DNA of 37,508 nucleotides, from positions 1-37,508 of the IMG/VR virus record IMGVR_UViG_3300010354_000012; one strand, written 5' to 3'. This DNA is from a virus. The first letter of the stretch is position 1; each line of letters begins with the position of its first letter. The notes under the pieces were generated by a model. That model was not told where the DNA came from. It was given only the letters and a program-made list of their open reading frames with translations, and made no database searches. The position numbers and the translations under genes are program-made. Below, in pieces: positions 214 to 37,508 of this stretch.

Positions 214-1604
214 GCATCCTGGCCGCTGCTCCAGTTGGCAACGTCCTCGGCCCTAGGTGCTCACCAGTTGCTGTCGCCAAGCAGCACACCTTCTTGGACT
301 GGCTCACCGAAGTTTCACCCACAGACAACTGGGATTGGCCGCACCTGGCCTACATCCGCCGCTACCTCGATGCCATCACCGCTGGCACCCTCAAGCGGCT
401 GATCGTCACCGTGCCGCCCCGCCACGGCAAATCCCACCAAGGCACCATCCGCTATCCCGTCTACCGCCTGGAGCAAGACCCCACCCAGCGGGTCGTGATC
501 GCTGCCTACTCCCAAACCCTCGCCAACACCTTCAGCCGCCAGGCGCGTCGCATCGCCGCCCAGCGGATGGAGATCTCCTCTGATCGCAAAGCGGTGGAGC
601 AATGGGAAACACCCGCCGGTGGTGGCTTTCGTGCGGTGGGTGTCGGCGCTGGCATCACCGGCCTAGGCGCCACCTTGGTCTGCATTGATGACCCGGTGAA
701 ATCCCGCGAGGAGGCCGAATCGGAGGCCTACCGCGAACGGGTCTGGAACTGGTATCGCGATGACCTCTACACCCGCTTGGAGCCCGGTGCAGCGGTGGTG
801 CTCACCATGACCCGCTGGCATGAAGACGACCTGGCCGGCCGCATCCTTCACTCCGATGACGCCAGCAGCTGGACCGTCGTCAACCTGCCGGCCCTGGCGG
901 AAGACGATGACCCCCTGGGCCGTGCCCCCGGTGAACCGCTCTGCCCGCAGCGCTACGACCTCCAAGCTTTAGAAGATCGCCGCCGCGTGCTGGGTGAGTA
1001 CGGCTTCAATGCCCTGTTCCAGCAGCGCCCCTCCCCGCCTGCCGGTGGTCTGTTCAAACGCTCCTGGTGGAAGACCTACCGCGAGCTGCCGCAGCTGGAG
1101 CGGATCATCACCAGCTGGGATCTGACCTTCAAAGACGGGCCTAACACCGACTTTGTGGTGGGCCTGGTGATCGGGCAGCTCGGCGCCAGCTTCTACCTGC
1201 TCGATTGCATCCGCGACCGCCTAGACATCACCGAAACGATCCCGGCCATCGTCAACGCCTTCAACCGCTACAAGCCCGTCGCCACGGTGGTGGAAGACAA
1301 GGCCAACGGTCCGGCGGTGATCGCCATGCTGCGCACCAAAGTGCCCGGCCTGATTGCGGTCAACCCGCAAGGGGGCAAGTTCTCTCGCGCTGCGGCCATC
1401 TCGCCCCTGATTGAAGCGGGCAACGTCTTTCTGCCGGAGCGCAGCAGCTGGGCCTCGGCGCTGGTGGAGGAGGCCGCCGCCTTCCCCAACGCCGCCCACG
1501 ACGATCAGGTGGATGCGCTCAGCCAAGGGCTCTCATGGCTGCGCAGCCGCCCGGCGATCAGCACCGCCGCCGCAGTGTCCTACGGGCAGGCCGCCGCATG
1601 GTGA
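210..1604 (+). CDS. terL: terminase large subunit (ATPase-nuclease)
   Basis: TerL pumps DNA into the prohead and cuts it at packaging initiation and termination. The 464-residue protein has both expected halves. The N-terminal ATPase shows a Walker A-like loop PPRHGKS (residues 69-75) and a Walker B strand TLVCIDDP (about 155-162). The C-terminal RNase H-like nuclease shows acidic positions in SWDLTFK (D304), VEDKANG (E362/D363) and HDDQVDAL (D431/D432/D435). Length is normal for the family. The ATG overlaps the terS stop, and the gene overlaps the following sigma gene by 7 nt, so all three appear cotranslated. High confidence. Confidence 0.95.
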   Translation: MSILAAAPVGNVLGPRCSPVAVAKQHTFLDWLTEVSPTDNWDWPHLAYIRRYLDAITAGTLKRLIVTVPPRHGKSHQGTIRYPVYRLEQDPTQRVVIAAYSQTLANTFSRQARRIAAQRMEISSDRKAVEQWETPAGGGFRAVGVGAGITGLGATLVCIDDPVKSREEAESEAYRERVWNWYRDDLYTRLEPGAAVVLTMTRWHEDDLAGRILHSDDASSWTVVNLPALAEDDDPLGRAPGEPLCPQRYDLQALEDRRRVLGEYGFNALFQQRPSPPAGGLFKRSWWKTYRELPQLERIITSWDLTFKDGPNTDFVVGLVIGQLGASFYLLDCIRDRLDITETIPAIVNAFNRYKPVATVVEDKANGPAVIAMLRTKVPGLIAVNPQGGKFSRAAAISPLIEAGNVFLPERSSWASALVEEAAAFPNAAHDDQVDALSQGLSWLRSRPAISTAAAVSYGQAAAW

Positions 1605-2227
1605 CGATGCCTAGCCCTAGCAAGCGCAAGCAGTGTGACGGGCAGCTGAGCTTCGCCCTGGAGCTGTTGCCCGTGGCCCCGTGGCAGCCGGCGCCGCTGC
1701 CCACCGCTGCGCTGCCGCCGCGCAAGCCCAAGAGCACCCGCCCCAAGACCCTCCTCTATCAAGAGACCTGTCCGCGCAAACGCCGGCAGGAGGAGCGCAT
1801 GGTGCAGCAGCACATCCCACTGCTCAAGCTGATCATCAAGCAGCAGCACCACAAATACAAATGCATTGAGGTGGAAGATCTGTACAGCCTCGGCTTGATC
1901 GGCCTGCTCAAAGCGGTGCGCAAGTACGACCCCGCCACCGGCTACAAGTTCTCCACCATCGCCCTGCCGTTCATCCTGGGCGAATGGCGCCACTACATCC
2001 GCGACCACAACTTCTGGCTCAAGGCACCGGGGTCCGTGCGTCAGCGCGGCATGCATGCCCGGCGGCTGCTGGAGCGTGGCGACACGCCCGCTGAGGTTTG
2101 CAGCAAGCTCGGCATCACCCCGGAGGAGCTGAAGCTGGATCTGCGCGCCACCGCTGGCATGGGGCATGAGCTGGGCGGCTTTGAGCTGCACGATGCCGAC
2201 GATCAAATGGACGCCGGCTGGTTGTAG
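1598..2227 (+). CDS. short sigma factor with regions 2-3, no region 4
   Basis: The 209-residue protein has a basic, proline-rich N-terminus and then sigma region 2: EDLYSLGLIGLLKAVRKYDP (core binding, 2.1-2.2) and YKFSTIALPFILGEWRHYIR (-10 recognition, 2.3-2.4), resembling the SigB/SigF group. A region-3-like helical segment follows (RGDTPAEVCSKLGITPEELK). The protein ends without a recognisable region 4, the domain that reads the -35 element. The start at 1598 overlaps terL; GTG 1601 and ATG 1607 are alternatives. A sigma gene between terL and portal is unusual. By analogy with T4 gp55, also a reduced sigma, I infer late-promoter recognition. That it is a sigma-family protein is fairly sure; the late role is inference. 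Confidence 0.85.
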   Translation: MVTMPSPSKRKQCDGQLSFALELLPVAPWQPAPLPTAALPPRKPKSTRPKTLLYQETCPRKRRQEERMVQQHIPLLKLIIKQQHHKYKCIEVEDLYSLGLIGLLKAVRKYDPATGYKFSTIALPFILGEWRHYIRDHNFWLKAPGSVRQRGMHARRLLERGDTPAEVCSKLGITPEELKLDLRATAGMGHELGGFELHDADDQMDAGWL

Positions 2228-2233
2228 TTATCA

Positions 2234-2245
2234 CCGGCAATTTCA
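2234..2245 (+). promoter_or_regulatory. late junction motif (CCGGCAATTTCA)
   Basis: Variant copy of the recurring 12-bp motif (consensus near GGGGCAACTTCA), just after the sigma gene stop and 22 nt before the portal ATG. A purine-rich ribosome-binding sequence (GGAAGAAAAG) lies between motif and start. Confidence 0.5.
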
Positions 2246-3743: not shown

Positions 3744-4780
3744 TGGAGGCGGCCGAGAGCTGGGAGAAGCTCAGCGATGCCCTGCTCGGGCCGTTTGAGC
3801 AGCAGATCGTTGATGGCCTCACCGGCGCCTACCGCGCCTTGGAGGGCCGCATTGAAACGGCCTACAAGCAAGCCCTGGAAGGGGCTGGTGATTTTCCGTT
3901 GCAGCGGCTGCTGGTGTTGCGGCAGCAGCTGGAGCAGCAGCTCAAAGGGCTGCAACTGCCCCCGGCGCTGCAGCAAAGCGTTGATGCGGCGCTGCTCAAT
4001 GGCCAGCGGTCGGCCTACTTCTGGGCCATGGCGGAGCTGAACAAGGTCAAAGAGCAGGCCAGCACGCTCAGCTCCGATCAAGCCGCTGCGCTGTTTGCCG
4101 ATGCGATCACCGATCCGACCACCCTGCTCTCGCCAGGGATGGTGCAGCAGAACCCAGCCGCGTTGATTGCCGCCGCTCAGCGGCAGAACGCCTTGGCCTC
4201 CTATGCAGTGGGCGGCAAAGGAGCACAGGTGTTTGCCAACTTGAACCGCCTGGTGGAGGTGGACCTGCGCGGCCGCATCATCGGCAGCGTGGAGTTTCAC
4301 CTGGCGCAGGGCGACAGCTGGCGGCAGCTGCGGCGCACCTTGCAGAACAGCTTGGCGCTAAGCACTAGCCGCGCTCAAACCGTGGCGCGCACGGAGATGG
4401 CCGCTGCGATGGTGGAGGGGAGCAAGCTGCGCTACGAAGCCGACGGCATTCAGCAGGTGCAGTGGCAGGCGGTGGGCAGCAGCCGCACCTGCGGCTATTG
4501 CGCCCCACGGCACGGCAAGGTGTATCGCCTCAGGGAGGTGGTGGCCCCGGCCCATCCGAATTGCCGTTGCACGGTGACGCCCTGGGATCCGCAATGGGTG
4601 GAGCTGGGGCTGGTGGATCCTGAAGAAGAGGCCAAAAGCCGAGCAGCGGTGCTGGCGGATTTGGAGGCCGCCGGCAAGCAACCGATCAGCGGGCCGACCC
4701 CGTTTGAGCGGGCGCTGGGGCAAGAGCAGGCGCCTGAGCCGCTGTGGGCCCCGCCCCGTCTGCCAGCAGGGGCAACCTAA
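3743..4780 (+). CDS. MuF-like head morphogenesis protein
   Basis: The 345-residue protein has a helical N-terminal half. Its C-terminal part contains the conserved Mu gpF/SPP1 gp7 core: ARTEMAAAMVEGSK, then a Cys/His cluster (TCGYCAPRHGKVY) and HPNCRCTVTPW. These residues probably bind metal. Members are minor capsid proteins that associate with the portal and enter the prohead. The ATG overlaps the portal stop by one base, implying tight coupling. The last codons and stop form a copy of the 12-bp junction motif. Confidence 0.85.
   Translation: MEAAESWEKLSDALLGPFEQQIVDGLTGAYRALEGRIETAYKQALEGAGDFPLQRLLVLRQQLEQQLKGLQLPPALQQSVDAALLNGQRSAYFWAMAELNKVKEQASTLSSDQAAALFADAITDPTTLLSPGMVQQNPAALIAAAQRQNALASYAVGGKGAQVFANLNRLVEVDLRGRIIGSVEFHLAQGDSWRQLRRTLQNSLALSTSRAQTVARTEMAAAMVEGSKLRYEADGIQQVQWQAVGSSRTCGYCAPRHGKVYRLREVVAPAHPNCRCTVTPWDPQWVELGLVDPEEEAKSRAAVLADLEAAGKQPISGPTPFERALGQEQAPEPLWAPPRLPAGAT
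4769..4780 (+). promoter_or_regulatory. late junction motif (GGGGCAACCTAA)
   Basis: The motif ends with the stop codon of the MuF-like gene and lies 15 nt before the next ATG (4796). No Shine-Dalgarno sequence is visible in the gap. Confidence 0.55.
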
Positions 4781-6095: not shown

Positions 6096-6503
6096 ATGCG
6101 GATTGAGATCAATCCGAACCTGATCGAAGATCGCCTGGAGCGCGCATGGGAGCGCTACAGCCAACGGCTGGAGGCGCAGTTCACCAAGGAGATCGGCACC
6201 AAGCAGTTCAGCTGGCCGACGCAATACAAGACCACGCGAGGCAGCTACAACCGCAAGGGCAAAGGCCGCGAAAGCGTCGGCAGCCCTCGCGACATCATCG
6301 ATAGCGGTGCCCTGCGCCAGAGCATTCAGCGCACACAGACTGGGCGGTTTGCCTACCGCTTCAGCTGGAACGTCGATTACTCGCTGTATGTGCTCAAGGG
6401 GTATCGCACCAGCAGCGGCAACCAGATGCCCCCGCGTGACTGGATCACCCCAGCGCTGTTCAAGCTGCCGCCGTTGAGCACGCTGCAAAAGCTGCTGCGC
6501 TAG
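6096..6503 (+). CDS. HK97 gp10-like tail completion/connector protein
   Basis: The 135-residue basic protein matches the HK97-gp10-like pattern: an N-terminal helix (IEDRLERAWERYSQRLEAQF), a central RDIIDSGALRQSI segment, a strand pair around FSWNVDYSLYVLKGY, and a C-terminal PPRDWITPAL. Proteins of this family join head and tail or cap the tail before joining. The TAG stop forms the beginning of the next junction motif. Confidence 0.75.
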   Translation: MRIEINPNLIEDRLERAWERYSQRLEAQFTKEIGTKQFSWPTQYKTTRGSYNRKGKGRESVGSPRDIIDSGALRQSIQRTQTGRFAYRFSWNVDYSLYVLKGYRTSSGNQMPPRDWITPALFKLPPLSTLQKLLR

Positions 6504-6514
6504 GGGCAACTTCA
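6503..6514 (+). promoter_or_regulatory. late junction motif (GGGGCAACTTCA)
   Basis: Perfect copy of the consensus. It overlaps the stop codon of the gp10-like gene (TAG at 6501-6503) and lies 19 nt before the GTG start of the tape measure gene. Confidence 0.6.
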
Positions 6515-6533: not shown

Positions 6534-8840
6534 GTGGCGGAATCGCTGGGGCGGGCGACGTTTGATGTCCTGTTGGACACAACGGCATTCCGCGCTGGCA
6601 TTGAGCAGGTGCGCGGCCTGGCGCAACGGGCCGGCAAAAGCATTGAGGACGCCTTAGGCAGCAAGGCCAGCAAGGGATCGCTGGCGGCCCTGGACATTCG
6701 GATCAACAGCCTGCGGGAAGAGATCCGGCTGGTGGAGATCGGATCAGCCAAATACAAGCAGCTGCAGGCGGCAATCCGCAAGGCCACCCAGGAGCGTCAA
6801 CAGGCTGAGCGCGGCACTGAAGGCGGGTTGGGCACAGCCTTGAGTGGCGGCTTGGCCAATGTCGCTGGTGCTCTTGGCATTGGCATCGGTCTGGCTGGCG
6901 TCGCCACCGCGATCAAAGATGCGGTGTCAGCAGCGGTGGAGTTTGAATCCATCACACGCAAGCTGCAAAACACCCTTGGCCCTCAAGGTGCTGCAGGTGC
7001 GCTGCAGTTCACCAAGGGATTGGCAGATCAGCTGGGCCTTTCCTACAAGCAGCTGGCCAGTGACTTTGGCAGCTTCACCGCCGCTGCTAGCGCTGCAGGC
7101 ATTCCGCTGGAGCAGCAGCAGGCTGTATTTCAAGCCGTTGCCAAGGCGGGTCAATCGCTGGGCCTCAGCGGTGATGCGGTCACCGGCAGTTTGTTGGCGC
7201 TGCAACAGATCGCGTCCAAGGGCGTGGTGTCAATGGAGGAGCTGCGGCAGCAGTTGGGTGAGCGCCTGCCGATTGCGTTCTCCGCCGCAGCGCAAGGTTT
7301 GGGGGTCACCCAGCAAGAGCTGAACAAGCTGGTGGAATCGGGGCAGCTGACGGCTCAAGAGTTTTTCCCGGCCTTGGCCAAGGGCCTCAACCAACTGACC
7401 GCAGGCGCTGGCGGGGTGGAGACCAGTGCCCAGCAATTCCAAAAGCTGGGCAATGCCTGGGAGGAGCTGCAGGTTGCCTTTGGCTCAAGCCTGCTGCCCA
7501 CCATTATTGATCAGATCAAGACGCTCACGGAGGTGCTCAAGGGCATCAAGATTGTGATGGATGCCAACAAGTTGGGCCTAGGTGGCGGCTTGTTTGGCAA
7601 TGCGCTGGGAATCATCCCGGAGCAAGGCGTCGAAGCGGTGGCGGCGCTGGAGAACCTGCAAAAGCAGTACGGGTTGACCAGCAAGCAGGCCAGGGCCCTG
7701 TTCACCGATGCGGTCAAACTGCAGGGCATCAACAACATTGCCTTTGCCAAGCCAGCTGAGTTTGAAAAGGTCTTGGCGCGCCTGCCTGGATTGGCAGAAA
7801 AGTTTCGCGCCCGTTACCGCGATGTCACCAGCGAGCTGCAGGCTGCCAATGCCGCTGCCGCACAGGGCTTAGCGGCGCAGCTGCAGAGTGAGGCCAAGCT
7901 CCGTACCGCCAAGCTGGCCAGCCTGAGCGCTGAGCAAAGCAATCTCAAGGCCCAAGAGGCGCGTCTGGGCTTCTACAGCCAAGAAGTTCAACTGATCGGT
8001 CAGATCAATAAGGTGCGCAGCGATGCGGCCATTGGACGCTCTGACACGATCAAGAGCCTGTTGGATCAAGAGCTGTCGCAGGCGCAGGCCTTGGCCAGCA
8101 GCGATGCCCAGCGGCGGGCCTTAGAGCTTCAGTTTGGCCAAGCCAAGTTCAACCAGACCGTGGCTGAGTTTGACCTCAAGGCCCGTGCCTTGGTGGCCGA
8201 GCAGCAGGGGCAGCAGGCCAGCTTGGCGTTTGAGCAGCAGAAGGCCGCCGCCGCTGCCAAGCGCGCTGAGATTGAAGCAGAAATCGCCTTGATCCAAGCC
8301 CAGGCCGCCAATGCCGAGAAGGGTTCAGCAGAGACGCAACGCCAGGTGACGCTGGCGCAGCAAAACCTCGATTTGATCCGCCAATCCAACAGCGAGGAGC
8401 AAGCGCTGGGCAGCCTGCGAACGCAGCTGCTGCGCGATCAACAAGCAGCAGCGCGTGAGCGCTTATCGCAAGAGCGCTTGCTTGCCCTCAACGGCCAAGC
8501 GCAATACGCCAGCCTGGATCAGCAGGCGCAGCTGCAGGCCGATGTCAACGCCGAGCTGAGCCGTCAGGCGGGCTACGCCAGCGCCGCTGCGGTCTCGGCC
8601 CAGAACTTCAAGAACCAGCTGCAGGGGGCCTCTGATGCCCGTGGCGAGCTGTCCAGTGCCTTCCAAGCCCAAGTCAACACGGTGATTGATGGCAGCCAGC
8701 AGTTCTCGCAGATGAACAGCTACCTCTCCACGATTGCCACCAACACCAGCAAGCAACCGGTGGTCAACGTCACCGTCAACAACAGCGGCAGCGGTAGCGG
8801 CAACTCAAGCGGGGCAGCACTACGTGGGTCAAGCGGCTGA
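6534..8840 (+). CDS. tail tape measure protein
   Basis: At 768 residues this is among the longest proteins of the phage. The N-terminal part has the tape-measure domain (about residues 150-300: FTKGLADQLGLSYKQLASDF, then GVVSMEELRQQLGERLPIAF and SGQLTAQEFFPALAKGL). A Gly/Ala hydrophobic stretch (about 95-135) may be a membrane-active segment. Residues 430-720 are long Gln/Ala/Glu-rich helices typical of the measuring rod, and the end is low-complexity Gly/Ser. At about 0.15 nm per residue this predicts a tail near 115 nm. The start is GTG. The stop TGA overlaps the next ATG. Confidence 0.92.
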   Translation: MAESLGRATFDVLLDTTAFRAGIEQVRGLAQRAGKSIEDALGSKASKGSLAALDIRINSLREEIRLVEIGSAKYKQLQAAIRKATQERQQAERGTEGGLGTALSGGLANVAGALGIGIGLAGVATAIKDAVSAAVEFESITRKLQNTLGPQGAAGALQFTKGLADQLGLSYKQLASDFGSFTAAASAAGIPLEQQQAVFQAVAKAGQSLGLSGDAVTGSLLALQQIASKGVVSMEELRQQLGERLPIAFSAAAQGLGVTQQELNKLVESGQLTAQEFFPALAKGLNQLTAGAGGVETSAQQFQKLGNAWEELQVAFGSSLLPTIIDQIKTLTEVLKGIKIVMDANKLGLGGGLFGNALGIIPEQGVEAVAALENLQKQYGLTSKQARALFTDAVKLQGINNIAFAKPAEFEKVLARLPGLAEKFRARYRDVTSELQAANAAAAQGLAAQLQSEAKLRTAKLASLSAEQSNLKAQEARLGFYSQEVQLIGQINKVRSDAAIGRSDTIKSLLDQELSQAQALASSDAQRRALELQFGQAKFNQTVAEFDLKARALVAEQQGQQASLAFEQQKAAAAAKRAEIEAEIALIQAQAANAEKGSAETQRQVTLAQQNLDLIRQSNSEEQALGSLRTQLLRDQQAAARERLSQERLLALNGQAQYASLDQQAQLQADVNAELSRQAGYASAAAVSAQNFKNQLQGASDARGELSSAFQAQVNTVIDGSQQFSQMNSYLSTIATNTSKQPVVNVTVNNSGSGSGNSSGAALRGSSG

Positions 8841-9589: not shown

Positions 9590-12003
9590 TGGTGCTGGAC
9601 GTTCGCGCCAAGATCCTCTGCAATCTGGGCCCCGTCATCTCCGGCAGCGTCAAAGATGACCATGTACAAGGCCAAGGTCTGGTGTTGACCACGGGCGATT
9701 TGGTGCTGGCCGGGCTGATCACGCCGGCGCATGGCGATGAAGTGAAGCTGGCCTACATCACCCCGGATGACAGCACGGTGGCGCTGTTTCCGCGTGGTCC
9801 TTTCTATGTGACCAAGGCGTTTGCCGATCCGCTGCGCAACCAAACGCAGATCAGCATCGCCAACAAGCTGGCGTTTCAGAAAAACAAAGGCGGCGGTGTG
9901 GTCAGCAGCGCCCTGGTCGATGGGCTCAATGGCCGCATTCCCAAAACGGCCAAGGCCATGGATCTGCGCGAATCCTTTGAGGTGATTGCCAGCCGGCTGG
10001 GTGTGGAGATTGAGCAGGGGGGCAGCTGGAGCATCAACAAGCAGCTGGCGGCACTCAACAGTGCGGATTACGTGGAGACGCTTTCGGACATGCTGGCCAG
10101 CGCCACGCACTTTGGCTATCTCAATGCCCAGGGCAAGCTGGTGGCTCAGTCCTATGCCGATCTGCCCACGGCCGGGCCGGTGTTTGGCTTTGATCGCGTC
10201 GTTGATGTCGCGGGCAACCAAGGCGGGCTGGACTTCACCGAAAACCCAGCGGGCAGCGGCACTGCCCAAACGGTGGATGACGAGGTGGACGATCAGCCAT
10301 CGACGATTTGGTTGGCCGGTGGTTTGGTGCAAGAGGCCAGCTACGGCGAGTTTGAAGGCAGCTGGGATCAATCGGCCACCAGCACCCAGACCGACATCAA
10401 GGTCACCCTGCGCAATGGCAGCACCCGTAGCTATGCGATCACAGAAAGCGTTGAAACAGCGGAGTTAAAGGCCGAGCCGGACAACCGCACGGTGGAGCGC
10501 ACCTCGGTGACCAGCACCGCATTGGTCAAGGTCAACAGCCAAGTCATCCAAGATTTCCTCAACGCCGGTGGCGGCGGCCCCAGTCCGGCCACACCGATCA
10601 CCAGCCGCAAGAGCGACCGCTACACCTACGAGGAAATTCAACCGGAGCCGTTGACAGAGCAAGAGCAAGAGCAGGTGCAGCAGGAGATCACAGCGGCGCA
10701 GCAAGCGATTGCCCAGAACAATCCAGGATCAAGCCATTCGGTGCTGAGTCCCTCAGGCAGCATCGTGTTGCTGCCCAAACTGCCCACCTACCGGGTGGTG
10801 CTGGAGGAGACCAGCGAAACGATGTCCTACGTGGAGGCGTTGGGGCGGATTGGCGTCAAGGACTACTCCAAGATGGAATCAATCCCGAGTGGTGAGGGCA
10901 TCAAAGAGAGCATTATCACCGAGATTCTCTACAGCGAAACCAAGCAAAAGCGCATAGAGCGCACCTATGTGGCCTATGGCCTGACGCAAATGGGTCAGCA
11001 AGCGATCAGCGCCGCTGCGCTGCGAGCCCCGGCCAACTCCAGCCTGGCGCCCTACATCGACCAGTTCTTCAGTTTGGTGCTGGAGGATGTGAAGGTGGTC
11101 ACCTCCGACCTGAATCTGAGCGAGGAGGACAAGCCGGTGCCGGATTATTTGGCGCCCTACAAAACCGCCAACGCGGTGATTCAAGGCAGCAGCCGCATTC
11201 AGGTGGGGGCCCAGCCGGAGCAGCGCGCCAACAAAGCGATTTCCTTTGCCGTGCCTTACCTGCCCGACGATGTGGTCAACGACGACGGCAGCGTCAGCAA
11301 GGGCAATGCCGAGGCATCGGCTGCCTCCTACGCCGAGGAGCAGAACCGCCTGCTGCTGGGCCATCGCCTAGGCCTGCAGGTCACGACCGCTTTGGGGGTG
11401 CTGCCCTCACAGCCGCTGGGAGCCTTTCACCTGCGCAACGACGGCATCACCGCCACCTACCGCACCAACGGCACCGCCTGGAGCTTTGATGCCAACAGCT
11501 GCTTGGTCTCCACCGATGCGCTGTATTGGGGCATGGCCGGTGGCGACATCAATGGCCCGCGTTGGACGCCTGTGGCCCCTGGCACCACGGCCCTGCCCAC
11601 CCCACCGGCGGATGTGAACCATGGGCCGCAAAGCCCGGCCAACAGCTTGCCGTTGGAGGAGCCGCTGGATGTCAGTGACATCGCGGCGGTCAGCCAGTTG
11701 ATTGATTCGCTGCCCGATGACGAAGCGGAGGTGTTTGAGACAGAGCTGGTGCCGTTGGCGCTGGCGCTGCCATACAAGAGCATCAGCCCGGCGGTGTTTG
11801 AACTGCGGCTGCAGGCTGAGACGCTGTTGGTGCCGCTAGGGATCAACCGCAGCATGGGTGATGCGACGCTGCAAACCACACTGCAAGTGAATGCGCAGCA
11901 TTTGTTTGCCGAGCATGTGGTGCTACAGCTGGAAAGTGCTGAACGCGTGGTGTTGGACCCTCCACTGACAGCTGGGCTGGGTCTGGGCGGCAACCTTAGC
12001 TAA
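9589..12003 (+). CDS. tail tip / baseplate hub-like protein
   Basis: The 804-residue protein follows the Dit-like gene. Residues 1-220 resemble the gpD/gp27-like hub fold used in tail-associated proteins (RGPFYVTKAFADPLRNQTQI; RESFEVIASRLGVEIEQGG; YVETLSDMLASATHFGYL). A Glu/Gln-rich linker (about 360-380) separates this from C-terminal beta-rich domains. It would form the tip that contacts the cell surface and directs DNA ejection. ATG 9589 overlaps the previous stop. The gene end contains a junction motif. Confidence 0.7.
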   Translation: MVLDVRAKILCNLGPVISGSVKDDHVQGQGLVLTTGDLVLAGLITPAHGDEVKLAYITPDDSTVALFPRGPFYVTKAFADPLRNQTQISIANKLAFQKNKGGGVVSSALVDGLNGRIPKTAKAMDLRESFEVIASRLGVEIEQGGSWSINKQLAALNSADYVETLSDMLASATHFGYLNAQGKLVAQSYADLPTAGPVFGFDRVVDVAGNQGGLDFTENPAGSGTAQTVDDEVDDQPSTIWLAGGLVQEASYGEFEGSWDQSATSTQTDIKVTLRNGSTRSYAITESVETAELKAEPDNRTVERTSVTSTALVKVNSQVIQDFLNAGGGGPSPATPITSRKSDRYTYEEIQPEPLTEQEQEQVQQEITAAQQAIAQNNPGSSHSVLSPSGSIVLLPKLPTYRVVLEETSETMSYVEALGRIGVKDYSKMESIPSGEGIKESIITEILYSETKQKRIERTYVAYGLTQMGQQAISAAALRAPANSSLAPYIDQFFSLVLEDVKVVTSDLNLSEEDKPVPDYLAPYKTANAVIQGSSRIQVGAQPEQRANKAISFAVPYLPDDVVNDDGSVSKGNAEASAASYAEEQNRLLLGHRLGLQVTTALGVLPSQPLGAFHLRNDGITATYRTNGTAWSFDANSCLVSTDALYWGMAGGDINGPRWTPVAPGTTALPTPPADVNHGPQSPANSLPLEEPLDVSDIAAVSQLIDSLPDDEAEVFETELVPLALALPYKSISPAVFELRLQAETLLVPLGINRSMGDATLQTTLQVNAQHLFAEHVVLQLESAERVVLDPPLTAGLGLGGNLS
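11987..11998 (+). promoter_or_regulatory. late junction motif (GCGGCAACCTTA)
   Basis: Lies in the last codons of the tip gene (stop at 12001-12003), 19 nt before the next ATG at 12018. Confidence 0.5.
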
Positions 12004-12461: not shown

Positions 12462-12473
12462 GGGGCAAGTTCA
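12462..12473 (+). promoter_or_regulatory. late junction motif (GGGGCAAGTTCA)
   Basis: Starts immediately after the TAA of the preceding gene, 17 nt before ATG 12491. A GTTT tetramer lies about 15 nt upstream, but this is not conserved at the other copies. Confidence 0.58.
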
Positions 12474-15803: not shown

Positions 15804-16453
15804 ATTGGACGGCCCTGTTCTGGGCGCTGGTCAAGGCCTTCCCCGGCCAGTTCAACCGCACCACGTTTGCCTGTGAAAAGGTGACGGTGGTGCTGGCGGC
15901 GCACCGGCAGCTGCAGGAGTTGCAGCGCCAAGAGCTGCAGTTGCAGGAACTCCAAGGCGCGCAGCTCTGCAGTCTCCTTTACAACATCAACCGCGACGCC
16001 AAGAAGGGCAAGGCGACCACGCATCAAGACTGGCTGTTCTTCCGCCAAGAGCAGCGGCAAGAAGAAGACCAGCTGCCCGCTGCGGTCGCGCACATCTGTG
16101 TGGCGCTGCGCCATGAGCAGCAGCTGCCGCCGCTGTTGATCGGCATTTGGCGTGATGTGCTGAAGCGAGCCGCCGTACCTGCGGAGCAGCCAGAGATCCG
16201 GGCCTTGGTCAGCAGCGACCGCAACCTGGTGATCGTGGCCCCCAGTTGGGAGGGCCAGCACATCCGTGGCTTTATGGCGGCCAAGGGCCAAACACCCGGC
16301 AGCACGGTGGAGCTAAGCGACATTGATCGCCCGCTGCTGCGCTATCAGCTCAAGCTGCCGAATCACCTGCAGCCCATTCACTACGAAGCCGGTGTGCTGC
16401 TGCTCAATGAACAAAGCCCTGCCGGCAGCCTGTTAGGGGCAACTTCACCGTAA
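15770..16453 (+). CDS. tail assembly chaperone, -1 frameshift (GT-like) extension
   Basis: After slippage the reading continues as ...KKAAGDWKPSRIDWTALFWA and on through LVKAFPGQFNRTTFACEKV, a protein-like sequence with no good start codon at its head; this is why translation by frameshift is favoured over an independent gene. An internal ATG at 15881 is the first conventional start but would remove this conserved-looking segment. The extension is about 227 residues, Gln/Leu-rich at 15890-15960, and ends in LLGATSP, whose codons form a junction motif. Such T domains contact the tail tube protein. Confidence 0.7.
   Translation, partial: AAAGDWKPSRIDWTALFWALVKAFPGQFNRTTFACEKVTVVLAAHRQLQELQRQELQLQELQGAQLCSLLYNINRDAKKGKATTHQDWLFFRQEQRQEEDQLPAAVAHICVALRHEQQLPPLLIGIWRDVLKRAAVPAEQPEIRALVSSDRNLVIVAPSWEGQHIRGFMAAKGQTPGSTVELSDIDRPLLRYQLKLPNHLQPIHYEAGVLLLNEQSPAGSLLGATSP
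16436..16447 (+). promoter_or_regulatory. late junction motif (GGGGCAACTTCA)
   Basis: Perfect copy in the last codons of the chaperone extension (stop 16451-16453), 15 nt before GTG 16463. Confidence 0.6.
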
Positions 16454-16462
16454 AGCTCAGGC

Positions 16463-17056
16463 GTGGACATCCTTGCGCTACGGGGAGCCCTAGCCACGGC
16501 TCTCGTTGATCACCTCGGCACCTACACGCTCGCCAATGGCAGCACCACTCCGGCAATGGTGGTGCGCGATCCCGGTGAAGGCATGGGGGCCAGCACAACC
16601 GTGAGCGGTTTGGAGGTGGTGATCAGCAGCGTGCCGGAGCTGGAGCAGCAGGCCCAATACACCGGCAGCCCGTTCATCCAAACCTGGAACGTGTTTCTGC
16701 TCGATTGGGGCGGCGCGGATTTAGAAGGCGCTGCGGCGCTGGTGCAGGCGGGCTTTCCGGGCACCACGGCTCAGATCCTGGCGGTCATTGAGGATGTGGG
16801 CCCCAAGCGGCAGACGCAACTGCGCATTCCGCTCAGCCGTGAGGGCGGCAGCTATGCCTTTCAGGTGCCGCCGACGCTGCAGGTGCAGAGCGTCAACGGC
16901 CAGACCGGGCACGTCAGCTTGGACTTGGCTGATCTGGCGGATGTCGATGACACGGGCCTGGTTGACGATGCCGTGTTGGTGTGGGATGCCACCAGCAACA
17001 GCTGGAAGACCAACCTCCACACCACGCTCACGTTGACCGATGGCGGCCATTGGTAG
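16463..17056 (+). CDS. tail terminator-like protein fused to a fibre-type segment
   Basis: The 197-residue protein starts with GTG. Residues 1-135 (LRGALATALVDHLGTYTLAN; LEVVISSVPELEQQAQYTG; RQTQLRIPLS) look like small tail-terminator or completion proteins. Residues 145-197 (QSVNGQTGHVSLDLADLADV; DDAVLVWDATSNSWK) match a module usual in phage tail fibres. The junction implies a fusion, perhaps letting a collar or tail-end protein carry a fibre attachment segment. The N-terminal call is tentative, the fibre-like C-terminus fairly clear. The TAG stop starts the next junction motif. Confidence 0.6.
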   Translation: MDILALRGALATALVDHLGTYTLANGSTTPAMVVRDPGEGMGASTTVSGLEVVISSVPELEQQAQYTGSPFIQTWNVFLLDWGGADLEGAAALVQAGFPGTTAQILAVIEDVGPKRQTQLRIPLSREGGSYAFQVPPTLQVQSVNGQTGHVSLDLADLADVDDTGLVDDAVLVWDATSNSWKTNLHTTLTLTDGGHW

Positions 17057-17067
17057 GGGCAACTTCA
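17056..17067 (+). promoter_or_regulatory. late junction motif (GGGGCAACTTCA)
   Basis: Perfect copy overlapping the preceding TAG stop, 24 nt before GTG 17092. A CAAAGC hexamer follows a few bases downstream, and similar sequences follow the copies at 4769 and 16436. Confidence 0.6.
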
Positions 17068-17926: not shown

Positions 17927-17938
17927 TCGGCAACCTAA
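17927..17938 (+). promoter_or_regulatory. late junction motif (TCGGCAACCTAA)
   Basis: Two bases after the fibre stop (TAA at 17923-17925), 35 nt before ATG 17974. Here the following gene also has an AAGGA ribosome-binding sequence. Confidence 0.55.
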
Positions 17939-20357: not shown

Positions 20358-20369
20358 CTGGCAACTCAA
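20358..20369 (+). promoter_or_regulatory. late junction motif variant (CTGGCAACTCAA) before capsid
   Basis: Lies 2 nt after the stop of the basic protein and 81 nt before the GTG start of the capsid gene. This is the longest leader among the copies, which may matter for the most abundant virion protein. Confidence 0.4.
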
Positions 20370-24106: not shown

Positions 24107-24118
24107 TTAGGTTGCCGC
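24107..24118 (-). promoter_or_regulatory. late junction motif on minus strand (GCGGCAACCTAA)
   Basis: Copy of the 12-bp motif in front of the small leftward gene, 22 nt before its ATG (24084). Orientation follows the gene, which argues for a directional signal rather than a random repeat. Confidence 0.55.
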
Positions 24119-24119
24119 C

Positions 24120-24353
24120 ATGGCCTGGGGCGAGTGGATGGTGCCTCAACCAGGCCCTGAGCATTGGTTGACCTTGGAGCGTCAACGCAGGGCCGTGGCT
24201 GATTATTCCGAGACCCAAGCCAAGGAGATGCTGGTCAAACTCTGCCAGCTCTCAATGCATCAAGACCTGATCATTCGCGGTGCTACGCGGCGGATTGCCG
24301 AGCTGGAGTGCCTTCAGGCTTTGGAGAAGGCCGCAGATACTGCTGAAGCCTGA
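24120..24353 (+). CDS. possible NblA-like small helical protein
   Basis: The 77-residue protein contains HWLTLERQRRAVADYSETQA followed by KEMLVKLCQLSMHQDLIIRG. The order of LTLE, then a short gap, then S..QAKE(M/F)LVKL and a second helix resembles NblA (SLEQQF...S.DQAKDFLVKLYEQ), the small cyanobacterial protein that targets phycobilisomes for degradation; some freshwater cyanophages carry nblA. The gap before the QAK helix is shorter than in NblA and the C-terminus diverges, so this may be only a related helical-hairpin family. It converges on and overlaps the sigma gene by about 70 nt. Confidence 0.45.
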   Translation: MAWGEWMVPQPGPEHWLTLERQRRAVADYSETQAKEMLVKLCQLSMHQDLIIRGATRRIAELECLQALEKAADTAEA

Positions 24354-25200
24354 TCAACGCACTCTTGTGGTGAATCTGCACCATCTGACGGGTGGTGCCC
24401 ACTTCTTGAGCAATCGATTCAAACGACGGCGGGCTTTTCAACGTGTGGAAGTAGCGCGAGAGAATCACATGCCGCTGTTTATCGCTCAGGTGTTGCACGG
24501 CGTCCTGCAACGGCTCGCTCATCAGCCCGCATTCGTTGTAGCTGTCCTCCACCTCTGACAGATCAGCCAGCAAATCCAGATAGGTGCTGCTCTCGTAGCC
24601 CTCTTTGACCGTCTCATCCAAGCTCAAGATGCTGGCGTTGTGGTTGAGGTAATGCTGCAGGCTTAGCTCTGAGACGTTGCAGTGCTCGGCCACCAAGGAC
24701 AACGCCGGCAGGCGCCCCGTTTGGCGGTGGTGCTCCCGCATGAAATCCATCGCGGCCTTGATCGTTTGATTGACGCCATGGGGCAGGCGGATGGTGCGGC
24801 CGTGCCGTTCAATGCTGCGGATGATGCCCTGCTTGATCCACCAGTAGGCGTAGGTGGAGAACTTGTAGCCCCGCGTCGGATCAAAGCGCAGGATGCCGCT
24901 CTGCAGACCGAGCAACCCCTCTTGGATCAGATCCTCTAAGGACTGGGTGCCACCGACCCGCACGTATTTCTTGGCGACATTGACCGCCAGGCGGATGTTC
25001 GATTGAAAAAAGCGGTCGTAGGCCCGTTTGCCGCGCCGCATCACCATTTTCTGTTTGGGCGTTGGCCGCTCGATGTCTTTGATCTCCTGCCAGGCCTGGA
25101 CGTGGCGGGCAAAGATGATCTCCTCTTTGGCGGTCAGCAGCGGATAGCGATGCGATGCCTGAATCAGCCAGTCCACCGTGTCGGTGTTTGAAATCAGCAC
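24283..25200 (-). CDS. sigma-70 family RNA polymerase sigma factor (group-2-like)
   Basis: The 305-residue protein has full sigma architecture: region 1.2 (WLIQASHRYPLLTAKEEIIF), region 2 (NIRLAVNVAKKYVR; LEDLIQEGLLGLQSGILRFD; YKFSTYAYWWIKQGIIRSIE; RTIRLPHGVN), region 3, and a region 4.2 HTH (SFESIAQEVGTTRQMVQIHH). It closely resembles cyanobacterial group 2 sigma factors, which supports the host inference. It starts at GTG. It is the last gene of the leftward early operon, so it is made after the recombination genes and could redirect host polymerase to middle or late promoters. Confidence 0.93.
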   Translation of the reverse strand: MLISNTDTVDWLIQASHRYPLLTAKEEIIFARHVQAWQEIKDIERPTPKQKMVMRRGKRAYDRFFQSNIRLAVNVAKKYVRVGGTQSLEDLIQEGLLGLQSGILRFDPTRGYKFSTYAYWWIKQGIIRSIERHGRTIRLPHGVNQTIKAAMDFMREHHRQTGRLPALSLVAEHCNVSELSLQHYLNHNASILSLDETVKEGYESSTYLDLLADLSEVEDSYNECGLMSEPLQDAVQHLSDKQRHVILSRYFHTLKSPPSFESIAQEVGTTRQMVQIHHKSALIRLQQYLRPSPKPEGTPARQSAA

Positions 25201-35272: not shown

Positions 35273-35699
35273 AGCCATCACCTTTGATGCCATCGGCATG
35301 GACCCCGCCACGCAGGGCTCCAAGCGTCACGTCGGCAACGGCATCATGCGCGAAACCAATCAGCGCCTGCCAGCTTGGCGATCCACCGTCGCCCACTGCG
35401 CCCTCGCCACCAACCAGCCCCTGATCAGCGCACCGGTCTCCATCGCCATCACCTTTCGCTTCCTGCGGCCCCAATCCCACTACCGCAAAAGCGGCTTAGC
35501 TCCCTCCGCTCCGCTACTCCTAACCTCCAAACAAAAAGGCGACATCGACAAACTCTCCCGTGCTGTCCTTGATGCCCTCACTGGCACTCTTCTGCTTGAT
35601 GATTCGCAGGTGGTTCAGCTCTCGGCCCACAAGCGCTGGGCTACAACCGGTGAACGCCCCGGTGCCCTCATCACCATCATTCCCCTCGCGGCAACCTAA
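35187..35699 (+). CDS. rusA: RusA-type Holliday junction resolvase
   Basis: The protein shows the RusA core: QGSKRHVGNGIMRETNQRLP near the start, WRSTVAHCALA, SIAITFRFLRP, and the metal-binding segment KGDIDKLSRAVLDALTGTLL followed by LDDSQVVQL (conserved Asp residues). It cuts four-way junctions made by recombination and replication, freeing DNA for packaging. The family usually begins a few residues before ITFDAIG; the nearest ATG is 35187, giving a Pro/Ser-rich extension that overlaps the RHH gene. ATG 35298 would cut into the fold. The stop forms part of a junction motif. Confidence 0.88.
   Translation: MPPAPSLASPAVNSKPSSPPSSPPSPQPEAITFDAIGMDPATQGSKRHVGNGIMRETNQRLPAWRSTVAHCALATNQPLISAPVSIAITFRFLRPQSHYRKSGLAPSAPLLLTSKQKGDIDKLSRAVLDALTGTLLLDDSQVVQLSAHKRWATTGERPGALITIIPLAAT
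35688..35699 (+). promoter_or_regulatory. late junction motif (GCGGCAACCTAA) before packaging block
   Basis: Ends with the RusA stop codon, 19 nt before ATG 35719. It is the only clear copy in this half of the genome and would place the methyltransferase, terminase and short sigma genes under the same control as the virion genes. Confidence 0.5.
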
Positions 35700-37275: not shown

Positions 37276-37508
37276 TGGCATCCCCTCGGGGCACTAAACA
37301 AGAAACAATCGACCGCGCCAACCGCTTTGCTCGCATCATCGCAACCGGTGGTCGCAGGTCGGACTGCATTCGATATGCCGCAGAAAACTGGGGGGTTGGC
37401 CCTCGCTCTTGCGATGAATACCTCAAACTCGCACGTGAACAGCTCAAGGCCGACTGGGACATTGAACGCCCTCAAATGATTGCCGACCTGCTCTCGCAGT
37501 GCTCCACC
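37275..37508 (+). CDS. terS: terminase small subunit, N-terminal part
   Basis: The ATG overlaps the methyltransferase stop (TGATG). Residues 1-78 are encoded here: ASPRGTKQETIDRANRFARI, then IATGGRRSDCIRYAAENWGV, an HTH-like pattern expected for recognition of the packaging site. The frame runs off the window and continues exactly at base 124 after the shared repeat, for a total of 107 residues. Confidence 0.75.
   Translation, partial: MASPRGTKQETIDRANRFARIIATGGRRSDCIRYAAENWGVGPRSCDEYLKLAREQLKADWDIERPQMIADLLSQCST
37386..37508. repeat. terminal direct repeat, right copy
   Basis: Identical over 123 bases to positions 1-123; see the left copy. It lies wholly within terS coding sequence. Confidence 0.95.

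Follow-up and report, generated by a model that had tools for sequence, protein, structure and literature searches.

In phage T4, late transcription is directed by gp55, a reduced sigma factor that has a sigma2 domain but no region 4, that acts on late promoters made up of a -10 element without upstream consensus and that binds the clamp through a short epitope in a flexible tail (PMC2988020, PMC7892883). The clamp motif of its partner gp33 is essential and that of gp55 is contributory (PMC7892883). Late promoters with a -10 element and without a -35 have also been reported for Staphylococcus phage K (PMC11598898). In Synechocystis, the group 3 sigma factor SigF uses TAGGC at -32 and GGTAA at -12 (PMC2758279), and the type III, or SigF-like, sigma factor of cyanosiphoviruses has been published as a group 3 sigma only (PMC2784084). 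In the open-access literature we found no mapped late promoters for cyanosiphoviruses, and no prior report of a missing region 4, a -10-only promoter class or a clamp motif for these sigma factors.

The window analysed here is a viral record of 37,508 nucleotides (IMG/VR IMGVR_UViG_3300010354_000012). Its ends form a 123-nt direct repeat (1-123 = 37386-37508), as in a circularly closed assembly, and its gene content is that of a temperate tailed phage, with a serine integrase, a Sak-like annealing protein, RusA and a ParB-methyltransferase, together with terminase, portal, tape measure, scaffold, capsid and endolysin genes. Between terL (210-1604) and the portal gene, the true start of which is at 2268 (MDGRP...), lies the gene of a short sigma factor, which begins at 1598, overlapping the terL stop at 1604, and stops at 2227; the initial annotation had correctly placed it at the terminase-portal junction. 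The sigma features of the window are as follows.

1598-2227, plus strand: region-4-less SigB/F/G-type sigma factor of 209 residues, referred to below as the short sigma (Pfam Sigma70_r2 and SigBFG profile, no r4)

1799-2011, plus strand: residues 68-138, forming sigma region 2, with the 2.3-2.4 helix FSTIALPFILGEWRHYIRD that reads the -10 (Pfam PF04542; strong conservation in the A1 alignment)

2030-2155, plus strand: region-3-like three-helix unit (residues 145-186; AlphaFold2 helices 145-159, 164-171 and 175-185; SigF alignment to residue 182)

24283-25200, minus strand: second sigma factor of 305 residues, full-length and of the cyanobacterial RpoD/group-2 type with regions 1.2, 2, 3 and 4 (Pfam r1_2, r2 and r4; Sig70-cyanoRpoD, E 3e-59)

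The second sigma contains the only region 4 in the genome and was not mentioned in the initial annotation; it probably serves earlier genes. A second sigma is also encoded by S-CBS2, S-CRES1 and P-SS2 (for P-SS2, PMC2784084). The second sigma gene of the window is adjoined on the plus strand (24120-24353) by an NblA-like ORF (phycobilisome degradation), a weak match under the family cut-off. This ORF, along with relatives among cyanophages, suggests that the host is a cyanobacterium.

The closest sequence family of the short sigma in regions 2 and 3 is that of cyanobacterial SigF (group 3) and SigB/SigF/SigG. Pfam Sigma70_r2 matches residues 68-138 (E 2e-9), the NCBIfam SigBFG profile (TIGR02980, E 2e-20) is covered at positions 2-121 of 227, so that the match ends before region 4, and the best relative of solved structure is SigF of PDB entry 1l0o (E 1e-13). 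The protein shares the region 2 and region 3 homology of these sigma-70 group 3 factors, and their C-terminal, -35-reading region 4 is absent from it by profile, six-frame and structure tests. Pfam found no region 4 in the short sigma at E<=1; both Pfam region-4 models, run against the whole record in six frames, matched solely the second sigma, and 37 further ORFs of the window contain no sigma domain. The missing region 4 is not a problem of sensitivity, since the full-length control phage sigmas of S-CBS3, MA01 and S-B68 score region 4 with E values of 1e-8 to 1e-10. An AlphaFold2 model of modest confidence (17-sequence alignment, mean pLDDT 66.7; an earlier run with close relatives alone was poor, with pLDDT 58) contains the sigma2 helices and the region-3-like unit up to about residue 186, no region 4, and unstructured tails at residues 1-50 and 188-209. 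The initial annotation had described a region 2 most like that of SigB/SigF, followed by region-3-like helices and no region 4, and had proposed structure prediction as a check; the profiles, the 1l0o match, the six-frame search and the model all agree with that description. It had also called the protein gp55-like, which holds as an analogy, with the absent region 4 and the -10-only elements described below, and does not hold as sequence or profile similarity: BLASTP found none, hhalign gave a probability of 0.1% and gp55 belongs to a different PHROG (phrog_234). In a Foldseek search with the model the matches were ordinary sigma factors, gp55 not being among the 50 best listed.

In the window, a 12-nt element, [GC][GC]GGCAAnYTnA, is repeated before late genes only. 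Its strict form, G[GC]GGCAA[CG][CT]TnA, occurs eight times on the plus strand (expected 0.17; maximum of 2 in 200 dinucleotide shuffles) and once on the minus strand, and seven of the eight plus-strand copies end 15-24 nt upstream of a start codon. We regard as coincidence both the minus-strand copy at 24118 and the sites within terL (1372). The elements are listed below with the gap to the following start.

2234-2245, plus strand: -10-only element CCGGCAATTTCA before the portal gene (start 2268, gap 22), directly past the sigma stop; kept before the portal gene in relatives

4769-4780, plus strand: -10-only element GGGGCAACCTAA before gene 4796, gap 15 (strict motif scan; upstream flanks unrelated in relatives)

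6503-6514, plus strand: -10-only element GGGGCAACTTCA before the tape-measure gene 6534, gap 19 (strict motif scan)

8797-8808, plus strand: variant element GCGGCAACTCAA before gene 8840, gap 31; kept in relatives

11987-11998, plus strand: -10-only element GCGGCAACCTTA before gene 12018, gap 19 (strict motif scan)

12462-12473, plus strand: -10-only element GGGGCAAGTTCA before gene 12491, gap 17 (strict motif scan)

16436-16447, plus strand: -10-only element GGGGCAACTTCA before gene 16463, gap 15 (strict motif scan)

17056-17067, plus strand: -10-only element GGGGCAACTTCA before gene 17092, gap 24 (strict motif scan)

17927-17938, plus strand: weaker element TCGGCAACCTAA before gene 17974, gap 35 (PWM score 12.8)

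20360-20369, plus strand: what may be a variant element, GGCAACTCAA, lying 81 nt upstream of the major capsid gene (from sequence only)

35688-35699, plus strand: -10-only element GCGGCAACCTAA before gene 35719, heading ParB-MTase, TerS, TerL and the short sigma across the end repeat (strict motif scan)

A PWM trained on the late sites found no site before early genes on either strand; the unbiased motif discovery described below carries more weight. The information content is strong in the 12-nt core and essentially nil from -60 to -4 upstream in 37 contexts with dissimilar upstream sequence, and no -35 information was found in these 37 independent contexts or in 62 exact sites from cultured isolates. 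The initial annotation had noted a -10-only-looking motif before the late genes, and the counts and contexts given here bear this out; the motif is real and goes beyond the copies noted there, with a further one at 2234 before the portal gene and variants at 8797 and 20360. Sigma-70-type -10 elements have a flipped A at -11 and a T at -7, and the A and T of the shared core GG[CA]AnnYT have this same spacing. The motif was also considered as a Shine-Dalgarno site, which its position and sequence rule out. On sequence, the 37 and 62 contexts point to late elements of the -10-only kind read by gp55, and a -10 without a -35 is, as a parallel only, also what is reported for phage K; unlike the AT-rich late element of T4, the element of the phages with the short sigma is GGMAnnYT. 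Its GG had been said to recall the -10 elements of the SigB/SigF group, and the GGTAA of Synechocystis SigF indeed resembles the GGCAA of the motif. SigF, however, keeps region 4 and needs the TAGGC element at -32 (PMC2758279), whereas the short sigma has no region 4 and the motif no -32 partner, a combination that fits a SigF-derived factor in which the -12 reader would have been kept and the -32 reader lost.

The element at 35688, to which the initial annotation had drawn attention, is present, and some form of it precedes the same gene in every relative where that gene was located. The short sigma gene lies about 3.3 kb downstream, and because the end repeat indicates circular closure, a transcript from this element could run on into terL and the short sigma gene. 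From the position of this putative promoter, positive feedback of the short sigma on its own transcript is possible.

Close relatives of the short sigma were found on 27 viral contigs, and a more distant pair (L034 and L250) has the same gene order. A region-4-less sigma adjacent to terL is encoded in 28 metagenomic relatives (L001-L027 and L250) and in the cultured phages S-CBS2, S-CRES1, S-CRES3 and P-SS2, the homologues of which (gp077, gp20, gp21 and ORF003, respectively) all lie directly after terL and share the promoter core; in the A2 alignment the identity is 27-32% for their clades. Pfam found no region 4 in S-CRES1 gp20, in P-SS2 ORF003 or in the metagenomic relatives tested. The short sigma belongs with these cyanosiphovirus sigmas in a PHROG 36098-like group, having its position directly after terL, its SigF-like sequence, its lack of region 4 and GGMAnnYT before late genes. 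No prophage copies of it were found in a genome scan, and a terL search in genomes gave distant relatives only. In the loci of the relatives the motif occurs 64 times on the plus strand and never on the minus strand, in contigs that are redundant; the metagenomic relatives are mostly close to each other, so that the independent evidence amounts to three to four sigma clades.

A home-made EM procedure was applied, unseeded, to 90-nt upstream regions with shuffled-sequence controls. It returned GGCAACtTcA from the late genes of the window, TaGGcA..CTA from S-CBS2 and S-CRES3, ttGGaA..CTAg from S-CRES1 and aGGAA..CTAg from P-SS2, with log-likelihoods of 82-123 in the sigma-positive genomes versus 38-46 after shuffling, and an unrelated pattern (log-likelihood 46) from S-CBS3, which has the full-length sigma only. 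By this unbiased discovery the core GG[CA]AnnYT precedes structural genes in all four sigma-positive isolates, the 62 exact sites of which lie mostly 18-28 nt upstream of late-gene starts. Plus- and minus-strand counts of GGMAnnCTA are 29/2 in S-CBS2, 22/2 in S-CRES1, 25/3 in S-CRES3 and 14/1 in P-SS2, and in isolates without the short sigma they are 3/6 in S-CBS4 (50 kb read), 1/0 in S-CBS1 and 0/0 in S-CBS3. The early-gene upstream regions of S-CRES1 gave nothing clearly above control; a weak a.tGGTA.aCT pattern (L142), near the host SigF GGTAA, scored slightly above the shuffled sequences. The sigma and the motif thus occur together in the 28 relatives and the four isolates, and neither was found in S-CBS1 and S-CBS3, which have the full-length sigma only, or in the 50 kb read of S-CBS4; no relative with the motif set but without the region-4-less sigma was found. 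The initial annotation had inferred a link between sigma and motif and named their co-occurrence as a check, and the observed covariation supports that link at the level of sequence. Because the two covary, the element is best read as a -10-only late promoter.

The best overall explanation, to which we give a probability of about 0.8, is that the short sigma is a SigB/SigF-derived late sigma without region 4 that acts on -10-only promoters, with a tail tether as a candidate addition. An ancestral sigma of the SigB/SigF group would have lost region 4 and become a phage late sigma, which, with the host core RNA polymerase, would recognise GG[CA]A(-11)nnYT(-7) about 15-24 nt before late-gene starts and switch transcription to the virion genes. 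That the short sigma is the late sigma reading this motif appears highly probable. Its binding to RNA polymerase, promoter and clamp is something that we infer, as are the timing and the feedback.

A sigma factor that lacks region 4 must be anchored to the beta flap in some way. Since the absence of region 4 removes both the -35 contact and the flap anchor, the short sigma probably needs another tether, for which the best candidate would be a short linear motif in its disordered tail: in the window this is GQLS[FL]x[LF] at the N terminus, and the S-CBS2/S-CRES clade has Q[GP]SLF at the C terminus.

1640-1660, plus strand: codons for residues 15-21, GQLSFAL, a candidate sliding-clamp motif within the N-terminal tail, which is disordered (conservation, synonymous codon change)

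Among 16 relatives, G15, Q16 and L17 are the sole invariant residues of the first 47. The codons of the motif vary synonymously among relatives, and its variants are QLSFAL, QLSFQL, QLSLPL, QLSLQL, QLSFAF, QLAFNL, QLSFGL, QLALNL and QLAWDL, with QLSLWD as an outlier. In the collected loci (3361 ORFs of at least 120 residues) no non-sigma ORF has QL[SA][LF]x[LF] in its first 45 residues. Every intact member of the S-CBS2/S-CRES clade ends in Q[GP]SLF, and among the same 3361 ORFs the C-terminal clamp-like pattern is found only in this sigma clade and in one Lysinibacillus ORF, an unrelated ORF of 169 residues on a genome contig (L124) that ends in KYEQLSLF, a canonical clamp motif. In the S-CBS2 record (NC_015463; L141 10160-10330) the annotated sigma stops early, with the residues LQGSLF in a shifted frame just downstream, which suggests either a frameshift mutant or a sequencing error. 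The conserved acidic C-terminal tail ADDQMDAGWL of the window's clade was rejected as a clamp motif, being absent from the divergent L250, which keeps the N-terminal GQL. In L250 (1900-2500) this terL-adjacent relative retains GQLAWDL at the N terminus, and its C-terminal tail is wholly different (GQLDSMDGQFSCDALG).

The bacterial clamp-binding consensus is QL[SD]LF, and Escherichia coli Pol II uses GQLGLF (PMC3716654). The N-terminal motif fits this consensus fully in the first positions only, some members ending otherwise (QLSLWD). Like gp55, the short sigma would carry a candidate clamp epitope on a flexible tail; unlike that of gp55, this candidate matches the consensus for the bacterial beta clamp and, in the window's clade, lies at the N terminus. 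The window also differs from T4 in having no phage DnaN-type clamp and no recognised gp33-like co-activator, a protein that clamp activation requires in T4. Because the bacterial-type clamp profile DNA_pol3_beta has no match in the record, the partner clamp would be that of the host, and docking of the tail motif on the host sliding clamp (DnaN) would couple late transcription to replication, as gp55, gp33 and gp45 do in T4. We regard the chance that the tail motif is a clamp tether as evenly balanced. It might instead have a different binding partner, such as an anti-sigma or the flap of RNA polymerase, or its resemblance might be fortuitous; this alternative concerns the tether part only and deserves serious attention at rather less than even odds. 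It draws on the P-SS2 relatives, in which no clamp-like motif was found, and on the deviation of the N-terminal version at its last position in some members, but the motif is kept, through synonymous codon changes, in a tail that is not conserved elsewhere, and a different clade has a better form of it at the other terminus. In the P-SS2 clade region 4 is missing and the promoter is present, so the tether either is not universal or takes another form there, and we therefore infer clamp coupling rather than assert it.

Turning to the promoter itself, it is distinctly improbable that the motif is read by the full-length group-2 sigma or by host SigA or SigF, with the short sigma serving, for example, as a decoy that displaces the host sigma. 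The second sigma does co-occur with the motif in the window, S-CBS2, S-CRES1 and P-SS2, and the -12 element of SigF is similar, but S-CBS1 and S-CBS3 have a full-length sigma and no motif, the motif has neither a TAGGC partner at -32 nor any -35, and region 2.3-2.4 shows strong conservation in the short sigma. Slightly less probable again is an RNA-level signal, such as a 5' leader, translation or mRNA-processing element, with which the strand specificity and the narrow spacing to the start codon would agree (15-24 nt in the window, mostly 18-24 nt in the isolates); against it, the motif stands at too great a distance from the start codon for a Shine-Dalgarno site and differs from one in sequence, is limited to late genes, is absent from cyanosiphoviruses without the short sigma, has the A and T spacing of -11 and -7 and has a GG resembling that of SigF promoters. 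Least probable is a split sigma like Bacillus SigO-RsoA, in which a separate protein contributes region 4 in trans; this would meet the need for a flap anchor but is opposed by the searches of the whole record and of the remaining window ORFs, where region-4 and r4_2 matches fall only within the full-length sigma, and by the lack of a conserved -35 for a region-4 partner to read.

In conclusion, the late sigma reading of the short sigma, extended by the tail motif, leads to the tentative proposal, at odds just short of even, that small cyanosiphoviruses, which lie outside the T4 group, independently evolved replication-coupled late transcription from a SigF-derived sigma tethered to host DnaN, the motif having arisen at opposite protein ends in two clades. 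If true, this would be a second, unrelated instance of replication-transcription coupling, one that uses the host clamp, and would illustrate how an ordinary sigma factor, on losing region 4 and acquiring a motif of five or six residues, can bring such coupling about. A further product of the analysis is a late-promoter consensus for cyanosiphoviruses, cultured isolates included, that is open to testing.
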